From Halolamina sp. CBA1230 (lineage in GTDB: Archaea > Halobacteriota > Halobacteria > Halobacteriales > Haloferacaceae), in assembly GCF_002025255.2 (NCBI RefSeq), contig NZ_CP054587.1, positions 2,170,001 to 2,234,000 of the forward strand: a stretch of 64,000 nucleotides of DNA. Direction: 5' to 3'. Shown here one piece after another: positions 6,840 through 8,773 of the stretch. Under the pieces are notes generated by a model, which was given only the letters and a program-made list of their open reading frames with translations, ran no database searches and was not told the DNA's origin. The stretch's first letter is position 1; the number at the start of each line of letters is the position of its first letter. The position numbers were made by a program, and so were the translations under genes.

Positions 6840-7240
6840 TCGGTTCAGTAGTTGGTACTTGGAACAGCAACCGCGACGTCTCAATCGCTGGCAACTGGAA
6901 CAGCAACCGCGACAGCAACAGCACCTCGTTTGTAGCACACTTGCGACGGCAGGGTGCCGGGCACGAGGCCCGACACAGCGTACAGTCCCCGTCCCTCCCC
7001 GTCGCCGCCGGCGCTCGCTCGTTTCACTCGCTCGCGCGTTGGCGGCGACGCTACCACCGCGACCGCAACCGCGGCGGCGGTGGCACGAAACGCTCGCGGC
7101 TCCGTCCGCGAGCAGGCGTGAGGGACGAACGAGCGAACGGACGTGAGCGAGAGAGTCGGCTGGGGAGGCGTGTGGGCTGTGCGGGGCGGTGCGGTCACAA
7201 GTGGTCTAGCCTCGAGATGCTGTTGCTGTCGCAGCCAGCG
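6840..7240. repeat. Dispersed structured repeat, copy A
   Basis: About 400 bases of non-coding DNA homologous in order and sequence to 26020-26478. Parts in order: TGGAACAGCAACCGCGAC repeats with a 36-base period (6857-6920); a hairpin GTGCCGGGC / GCCCGACAC (near 6955-6977); a GC-rich variable section; a stem CTCGCGG / CCGCGAG with loop CTCCGT (7093-7112); the core TCGGCTGGGGAGGCGTGTGG from 7156; and an end CACAAGTGGTC...TCGAGATGCTGTTGC near 7196-7223. The stem at 7093 pairs C-G at its base where copy B pairs T-A. Copy A is immediately upstream of the minus-strand hydrolase. The insertion sequence begins 56 bases past its right end. Confidence 0.6.
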
Positions 7241-7287: not shown

Positions 7288-7295
7288 AAACCGTC
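7288..7295. repeat. Target site duplication, left copy
   Basis: AAACCGTC directly abuts the left end of the insertion sequence and is repeated exactly at 8766-8773. An 8-bp duplication is typical of the ISH1 group of the IS5 family. Confidence 0.9.
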
Positions 7296-7402
7296 GGCTC
7301 TGTTGAAATCCTATTATCTCGATATTTTATCGCTGAAACAGCCATTAGTTAGTCCTGAAAAATGACCAGTATTCTTATTGACTCAGCAGAAGAAGGAGTG
7401 CT

Positions 7403-7843
7403 ATGAACGTGAAAGAGATGTCTCGAACGCGACTGGCAGAGCTGGGACTCTCAGCAGCCTGCTTGAGTCTCGTTATAGCGTTTTTTGCAATCCCTCCAGT
7501 TCTTCTTTCCAGTCTCAATAATTCACCAGTTGGACTGCTCTTTGGTGTCGGTATTTGGATTGTTCCATCCCTTCTCGCTCTTATCACGCTCTACTATATC
7601 ACATCAAGTGATCGGAATATCGAGACGTACATCCTTGGGGGCCTCAGTGTGATTACGATACTGACGTTCCTGTTGAACCTTCGAACAATCCTTACTTCTC
7701 CGGGATTTCTCACCTACGGAGGCAGGGGAGCGTTCTTCGGTCCACTTCTCACTCTCCTCATAGGATCGCTAATTGCACTCGTAGTGTTAACCAGTGAGAT
7801 GGCTACTGTCTTCTCCAATAGAAAACTAACGAAGGCGTCCTGA
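7403..7843 (+). CDS. Passenger membrane protein inside the insertion sequence
   Basis: A 146-residue protein with four predicted membrane helices (about residues 11-35, 42-66, 75-95 and 107-131). It has few charged residues, unlike the acidic host proteome. A Shine-Dalgarno-like AAGGAG precedes the ATG. It lies wholly between the inverted repeats at 7296 and 8765 and points towards the transposase gene, with 48 bases between their stops. Codon use is richer in A and T than the chromosomal neighbours. I do not recognise the family. It may be cargo, an immunity-like or accessory protein, or a captured gene; none of these can be chosen from the sequence. Confidence 0.72.
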   Translation: MNVKEMSRTRLAELGLSAACLSLVIAFFAIPPVLLSSLNNSPVGLLFGVGIWIVPSLLALITLYYITSSDRNIETYILGGLSVITILTFLLNLRTILTSPGFLTYGGRGAFFGPLLTLLIGSLIALVVLTSEMATVFSNRKLTKAS

Positions 7844-7891
7844 TCAGAATCTTCTTCACCAGATTTCACGGGAGGTACGCAATCTACAACA

Positions 7892-8713
7892 TCAAAGTGT
7901 CTGGTCAAGGTTATGAGTGAGACAGCCGATAACAAGTTCGCGGAATTGCTTCCACCAGTGTCGAGAACGGATGAACGTACCGTACTTGCGTTTGAGACGT
8001 GAATTTACGGTCTCGTTCTGACTTCGCTGTCCGTACAGATCTGCATCTAATCGTGCATTCCACGCTTTGTGGATCGACGAGAACTCGCGGTGTTTGATCA
8101 GCGGGCGTATCTTCTTATCACGGGCTAATGCCCGAACCTTCTGATCGTCGTATCCCTTGTCTCCAAGGAGAATCTCCACGCCGTCGGAATTTCGTTTGAT
8201 GAGCGATGGCGCGATCTGAGAATCGTGCTTTCTGGTCGTTGTCACGTGTAGGTCCAGAATCGCATTCGCTTCCGTATCAACCAACAGTGTGACCTTCAAC
8301 TGCTGAATTGTTAGCTTCGCTCGCTTTGTGTAGTGTTTCGAGGCGTGACTACGGTCGAAGCCTGAAGCATCGATACCGACGACACCATTCGTCGGAAGAA
8401 GGGTAGCTGAGAGGTTGAGCAGCACGCGCCAGACAGCCATATCAAGTCTATCGAACGCTTTGCACAGCGTTGACGGGTCCGGAAGTTCAGTGAGGTTGAT
8501 CGCGTTCCGAATACGAGGCATTTCGATGAGTTCGTCAAGGAGTGTTCGATAGGTCGTGTCCTTCCGCACTTTGAGACAGAGCAAGACGATGTGCTGATGG
8601 AGCGTGTAGCGTTGTTTCGAGTATTTTGAGGAATATCGTGAGACTGCTCGCTGGGCGAGGTGAAATGCTTGCTCGACAAATCGGAGTAACTGCGACTTTG
8701 GGAGGGTCTGCAT
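7892..8713 (-). CDS. IS5-family transposase (ISH1 group)
   Basis: A 273-residue DDE transposase that cuts and joins the ends of the surrounding element. The first catalytic aspartate is in VGIDASGFDRS, the second in LLGDKGYDDQK, and the glutamate in RSQNETVNSRLKRKYG; the last has the IS5 pattern of an Arg/Lys a few residues after the Glu. The length matches ISH1-type transposases of about 270 residues. The frame is intact from ATG 8713 to TGA or TAG at 7892, so the protein is probably active. The start lies 36 bases inside the right inverted repeat, leaving room for a short promoter. Confidence 0.93.
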   Translation of the reverse strand: MQTLPKSQLLRFVEQAFHLAQRAVSRYSSKYSKQRYTLHQHIVLLCLKVRKDTTYRTLLDELIEMPRIRNAINLTELPDPSTLCKAFDRLDMAVWRVLLNLSATLLPTNGVVGIDASGFDRSHASKHYTKRAKLTIQQLKVTLLVDTEANAILDLHVTTTRKHDSQIAPSLIKRNSDGVEILLGDKGYDDQKVRALARDKKIRPLIKHREFSSIHKAWNARLDADLYGQRSQNETVNSRLKRKYGTFIRSRHWWKQFRELVIGCLTHNLDQTL

Positions 8714-8765
8714 CCACTCACACTATCGACTGGATATGTAACTCCCCAAGGATTTCAACAGAGCC

Positions 8766-8773
8766 AAACCGTC
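8766..8773. repeat. Target site duplication, right copy
   Basis: AAACCGTC, identical to 7288-7295. Removing the element together with one copy restores a short spacer after the dephospho-CoA kinase gene. Confidence 0.9.

Follow-up and report, generated by a model that had tools for sequence, protein, structure and literature searches.

The window analysed here, a stretch of 64,000 nucleotides from the haloarchaeon Halolamina sp. CBA1230, contains an insertion element of 1470 bp (positions 7296–8765), delimited by its inverted repeats and a flanking target duplication. Comparison of the two arms and of the flanks confirmed the boundaries given in the original prediction. The terminal repeats, GGCTCTGTTGAAATCCT on the cargo side (7296–7312, plus strand) and its counterpart on the transposase side (8749–8765, minus strand), are 17 nt each and 100% complementary, and the 8-bp duplication AAACCGTC is exact in its left (7288–7295) and right (8766–8773) copies. 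The cargo-side repeat forms part of a type-A end domain (7296–7357, plus strand), consisting of the repeat and about 45 bp of conserved subterminal sequence (GCTGAAACAGCC). Further inside lie a passenger gene (7403–7843, plus strand) for a protein of 146 aa with four predicted transmembrane (TM) helices, a junction running from the passenger stop to the transposase stop (7844–7891), the gene of an apparently intact IS5-family transposase of 273 aa (7892–8713, minus strand), and a type-R end domain (8714–8765, minus strand), a type recognized by subterminal clustering and seen on the transposase side only. The two genes are arranged tail to tail, wholly inside the element, and have G+C contents of 48% (passenger) and 51% (transposase), compared with 68% for the whole window.

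The element is present as a single copy in the host genome. Its insertion is recent, since five of the genus mates searched have no such inverted repeat at the orthologous site or in the roughly 1.5 kb around it. A search for an empty site with the joined window flanks showed that the right-hand gene alone is conserved in the genus mates, so that the pre-insertion site can be called empty just approximately. To the left of the element (window positions 7200–7235) lies a dispersed short repeat of some 33 bp, AGTGGTCTAGCCTCGAGATGCTGTTGCTGTCGC, listed at about 40 places in the host genome and at 28 in a genus mate with 88–100% identity.

The transposase gene has no internal stop and encodes, in order, the motifs IDASGFD, LLGDKGYDD, and ETVNSRLKRKYG. 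Its product matches the NCBIfam model NF033579.1 (transpos_IS5_2) with 221 bits (cut-off 140) as well as PF01609 (DDE_Tnp_1). An IS5-type DDE transposase, 17-bp perfect repeats, and an 8-bp duplication place the element in the IS5 family, for which cutting by the transposase at the element ends with duplication of the target is established. The enzyme had been described as an intact ISH1-type transposase. Its integrity, the IS5 family, and the 8-bp duplication are upheld, but a close relationship to ISH1 is not: the protein is 39% identical to that of ISH1A over 85% of its length, too distant for the strict ISH1 subgroup, which is based on close transposase relationship, whereas the nearest ISfinder-named transposases are those of ISHla2 (82% identity) and ISHxa2 (80%). 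Membership of the ISHla2/ISHxa2 group, taken as at least 75–80% transposase identity together with the same ends, is thus the appropriate assignment, the ends of ISHla2 being GGCTCTGTTGAAATCCT (0 mismatches) and AGGATTTCAACAAAGCC (1 mismatch). ISH28, described as a sister element, encodes a transposase 44% identical to that of the window and bears out the expectation that a plain IS5-family element carries a transposase alone: it measures 938 bp and has no slot for additional genes. Its copy in L156 has related ends (GGCTCTGGTGAATCGC) and is flanked by GTAAATTC as an 8-bp duplication. Relatives of neither the transposase nor the passenger were found in the viral contigs searched.

The passenger gene was likewise correctly recognized beforehand as a four-helix gene wholly inside the element. 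Its reading frame of 441 nt, stop included, encodes four hydrophobic segments, a ribosome-binding site (GAAGGAG, 7392–7398) stands just ahead of its ATG, and it has relatives with 32–54% identity in other haloarchaeal genomes (matches in 12 of 394 genomes, that of the window included); these features mark it as a real gene. The relatives share a well-conserved core, FLLNLRTVxxSPGxLTYGGRGAFxGPLLTL. No Pfam or NCBIfam family matched the protein, and a weak single-sequence structure model (mean pLDDT 66, pTM 0.45) consists of helices only. Judged from its sequence, the product is predicted to be an integral membrane protein. There is no second copy of the passenger in the window genome, and a full-length element carrying it was found only at the window locus. 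The only relative located beside a transposase or ends of the group is a decayed copy next to a broken transposase (L014). In two genomes of one genus (L006 and L007), the homologue is chromosomal and has native composition (GC3 of 0.85 and 0.91), and no inverted repeats resembling the element ends surround the chromosomal relatives. The window passenger belongs to this haloarchaeal family of chromosomal membrane-protein genes and is most readily read as captured from it. In both L006 and L007, the four-helix gene has a DUF7139 gene on one side and a PHP-domain gene on the other, a conserved neighbourhood that constitutes an uncharacterised membrane operon. The idea that the four-helix cargos of the various elements form one diverged family was abandoned, as a profile of the passenger family gave just marginal matches beyond the known relatives.

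Elements of this kind are widespread. Of 394 Halobacteria genomes, 261 contain the exact 17-bp repeat, and the reversed sequence, used as a control, matched in none of the genomes listed. A scan of haloarchaeal genomes yielded 80 loci with transposases about 80–88% identical to that of the window, to which loci from earlier scans were added; many come from draft genomes, and cargo reading frames were called by length and hydropathy. Both ends were located for 64 relatives, which share a common build: an R end of about 52 bp, the transposase gene, a short motif after its stop, a slot, and a distal end domain. Read outward from the transposase stop, the junction motif is typically TGAACGTTAGATATAGAG or TGAACGGTCAATACAGG. 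The slot, from transposase stop to distal end, is loaded in 63 relatives, of which 35 have exact 8-bp duplications; it spans 289–1971 bp, and its contents fall into 52 nucleotide clusters. In the remaining relative, L036, the junction motif leads directly into an A end; this locus was considered as a spurious short pairing, an explanation discarded in favour of an empty-slot element. With 63 of 64 relatives loaded and the sister ISH28 plain, the slot emerges as a nearly always filled property of the ISHla2/ISHxa2 group. Not all DNA in large slots is functional cargo, some of them, such as that of L072, holding other IS insertions.

The host genome itself harbours three further kin of the window element. 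One, of 1450 bp (C3:186386-187835; duplication GAGGATGT), encodes a transposase with 81% identity, and its slot holds a four-helix reading frame different from the window passenger; the second is a MITE-like element of 307 bp (C3:230253-230559; duplication AAGAACTC), and the third a transposase-less cassette of 554 bp. The named element ISHla2 is built in the same way, its copy in pHLAC01 having the same ends and, in the slot, a cargo other than the window passenger, namely a hydrophobic reading frame of 57 aa. This ISHla2 passenger (L154 2342-2515; NC_012030.1 285841-286014) is annotated as a separate hypothetical protein, HLAC_RS19060.

The same ends also enclose DNA that lacks a transposase gene. 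Close inverted pairs of the exact repeat gave 31 transposase-less pairs of 307–1433 bp. Exact 8-bp duplications flank 16 of them; the other 15 have none, so that some pairs may be remnants. Clustering of the subterminal 48 nt separated several end types. R ends lie on the transposase side in all 62 cases and never on cassettes; A ends are found on 44 cargo sides of transposase elements and at 15 cassette ends; B ends account for 8 cargo sides and 30 cassette ends, with a B variant at 14 further cassette ends. Cassette cargo includes a 344-aa SBF transporter (L110), a DNA methylase (L105, no duplication), and a 72-aa CxxC protein (L113) that has a 91% identical relative (L145) in another family of the order; many other cassettes encode proteins of one to three helices. 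A cassette of 554 bp in the host genome (C1:1708283-1708836; duplication TGATTTCT) encodes a membrane protein of 100 aa, of a family found in 150 of the 394 genomes. In a second genome, a 94% identical protein is encoded beside a decayed transposase, in an element that measures 1263 bp and has the duplication AATGGCGA. A third genome encodes an 86% identical one in a transposase-less cassette of 663 bp (duplication ACTCAGGA).

Alignment of the 554-bp cassette with the 1263-bp element reveals how such units differ. Nucleotide identity amounts to 88–100% in the cargo core and 63% in the left end domain, and falls to about 25–35% past the right junction, with the collapse located 21 nt after the cargo stop. 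At that point, the cap is a B end (CTCTGTACTTACTGATCA) in one unit and the transposase 3' end (CTCTATATCTAATGTTCA) in the other. The two caps have a degenerate junction motif in common, at which recombination would most simply be placed. Pairs of transposase-bearing elements display the complementary patterns. L078 and L088 have transposase halves 99.3% identical and unrelated cargo, whereas the cargo is 98.8% identical in L046 and L018 and 94.1% identical in L050 and L062, with transposase halves of 82.7% and 83.9% identity, respectively. A walk along these alignments shows that the change in identity falls at the transposase stop codon, a place that corresponds to the junction 7844–7891 of the window element. 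In such pairwise comparisons of sequence, transposase half and cargo thus behave as independent modules. Recombination explains both patterns, which rapid divergence cannot, and the junction motif, about 18 bp long and degenerate in the window element, is a plausible place for it. One locus, L077, has two tandem transposase genes of the group with one common cargo and distal end, and an 8-bp duplication around the larger unit; it is a possible intermediate of transposase exchange.

Other loci are nested or composite. In L130, a 659-bp cassette with its own duplication lies inside a 1368-bp one with another duplication; L143 is a 1279-bp element with a duplication, two membrane genes and, between them, an internal end with one mismatch; and in L129/L098 a 354-bp cassette with a duplication adjoins a transposase. 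These arrangements are plausible intermediates of cargo gain. Nested or adjoining elements with same-strand repeats 90–96 bp apart were also noted in L130, L126, L127, and L129, and the 90-bp spacing of the pairs on both sides in L126 and L127 suggests that an element inserted into a short MITE. The outer end of the apparently mobile composite L143 (positions 1440–1479) has the 17-bp repeat but lacks an A, B, or R subterminal domain, which hints that an end may need nothing beyond the repeat.

What the cargo encodes is extremely varied. In total, 119 cargo reading frames match 55 Pfam families, mostly once each, among them a PLP-dependent enzyme, luciferase-like, TrmO, SnoaL, Usp, PS decarboxylase, thioredoxin, TrmB, DNA methylase, and SBF. 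Small membrane proteins are nevertheless over-represented by comparison with shuffled DNA: a reading frame with at least two TM segments is present in 27 of 42 slots shorter than 1 kb (0.3 expected from dinucleotide shuffles) and in 8 of 25 small cassettes (0.03 in shuffles). In a set of 32 small annotated genes from two stretches of haloarchaeal plasmid, 4 have at least two such segments (p of about 1e-5 against the 27 of 42 slots, in a small sample). A search of the cargo with an anti-phage library returned DNA methyltransferase models and scattered single matches, and no clear defence system.

The window element very probably belongs to a modular group of haloarchaeal IS that exchange their cargo, the ISHla2/ISHxa2 group of the IS5 family, whose slot is loaded with short genes that would be exchanged by recombination and whose cassettes are presumably moved in trans. 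Such an element consists of three modules: a transposase module (R end, transposase, and junction motif), the cargo slot, and a distal end of the A or B type. Its transposase would cut at the common 17-bp ends and generate the 8-bp duplications, as the duplications themselves suggest. The slot holds almost any short gene, most often one for a small integral membrane protein, and cargo would pass between backbones by homologous recombination in the conserved stretches that flank it. On one side these are the 3' end of the transposase gene with the junction motif, or alternatively a B-end motif of similar sequence; on the other, the A end. The products would be new pairings of cargo and transposase, and transposase-less cassettes of the A-cargo-B type, for which the common ends and duplications point to mobilisation in trans. 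New genes are probably gained when an element lands within or next to another one and the outermost ends come to serve the whole unit.

According to the original prediction, copies lacking the passenger gene would indicate a one-time capture, in which an ordinary IS took up a host gene once, in the window lineage only. Copies without the window passenger do exist, and the full-length element with this passenger is indeed confined to the window, with a distant broken homologue by the decayed transposase of L014. Yet in 63 of the 64 relatives the slot is occupied by a different gene or other DNA, and recombination takes place between cargo and transposase. The passenger is therefore no fixed part of the element, and one-time capture is already refuted and almost certainly wrong. 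Hardly better placed is the idea that the passenger is a fast-diverging accessory or regulator of transposition, not exchangeable cargo. It would account for the small membrane protein encoded by most small slots, but the cargo also includes unrelated enzymes and transporters, the empty-slot L036 exists, ISH28 has no extra gene, and unrelated genes stand beside near-identical transposases.

A third reading is less probable than modular exchange of genes but has to be taken more seriously: the slot may be a neutral hitch-hiking site, in which ends are lost and replaced by chance and any host DNA located between the transposase and a new end is swept up, with no selection on the cargo. The extreme variety of the cargo, its occurrence in either orientation, and cargo that is decayed (L014) or holds other insertions would all fit. 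On the other hand, cargo reading frames are much longer and more hydrophobic than those of shuffled DNA, cargo families at 59–94% identity keep open frames in different genera, and the A and B end domains are conserved for about 45 bp beyond the repeat. A benefit of the cargo is presumed, and selection for cargo genes and neutral pick-up could both act. Of about the same, limited probability is an extension of the modular-exchange reading, by which the group would be a class-wide, integron-like exchange platform built from a simple IS5-type transposase: a common pool of short genes, many of them for small membrane proteins, would cross genera as cassettes that receive a new cap at a fixed junction, either a B end or a transposase module. 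The membrane proteins would be kept for changing the cell surface, for instance against viruses.

IS are usually treated as transposase-only elements, with passenger-bearing ones as rare exceptions. In the ISHla2/ISHxa2-type group, whose ends are present in two thirds of the sampled genomes of haloarchaea, a gene is almost always carried and exchanged, and the family would thus be better regarded as a gene-shuttling system than as a plain insertion sequence. It offers a definite route for the extensive traffic of genes seen among haloarchaea, accounts for many orphan small membrane-protein genes that are annotated as host hypotheticals, HLAC_RS19060 being an example, and opens cassette exchange to experiment in an archaeon amenable to genetics.

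Among systems already described, IS231/MIC231 of Bacillus cereus, in the IS4 family (Chen 1999, De Palmenaer 2004, via PMC2266710), comes closest. It too comprises many elements with diverse passenger genes and transposase-less cassettes with common ends, a modularity stated in PMC2266710 to be unseen in other IS families. Cassettes related to the window element correspond to a mobile insertion cassette (MIC), with a non-transposase gene between IS ends, no transposase, and a duplication; the window element, which has a transposase, does not. The two groups differ in host (Bacillus versus Archaea), in transposase (IS4-family versus IS5-type with 8-bp duplications, the window enzyme having an IS5-type model as its best match), and in slot position, which is between left repeat and transposase gene in IS231 and between transposase 3' end and distal repeat in the haloarchaeal group. 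The haloarchaeal group is also set apart by 63 of 64 loaded slots, swaps at a defined junction, and a bias for small membrane proteins. The term transporter IS (tIS; usage of Siguier and Chandler, cited in PMC3129680) covers individual elements with passenger genes unrelated to transposition. The window element answers to this description, with a passenger that lies between the ends together with a transposase and has chromosomal relatives outside such elements, but its group adds exchanged cargo and transposase-less partners with the same ends. Integron gene cassettes rely on an integrase and attC, whereas no integrase is found among the parts of the haloarchaeal element, which has DDE-type inverted repeats with duplications.

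ISHla2 was not mentioned in the literature searched, where passenger-bearing IS of haloarchaea appeared as single cases only; the priority of the modular haloarchaeal group is not certain. The haloarchaeal precedents are a transposase-less ISH2-type element with a reading frame in Haloquadratum and Halobacterium (PMC3119063), ISH2 being mobilised by the ISH8 transposase (PMC10264941), and the transposon passenger Hlac_3088, proposed as a virus-exclusion factor (PMC10544981); both are single cases for which no modular exchange was described. One cargo of the present collection resembles the Hlac_3088 passenger: in L134 (positions 987–1688 of the element), a protein of 233 aa has an N-terminal signal-like segment and, at its C-terminus, a PGF motif and a hydrophobic tail, of the archaeosortase type.
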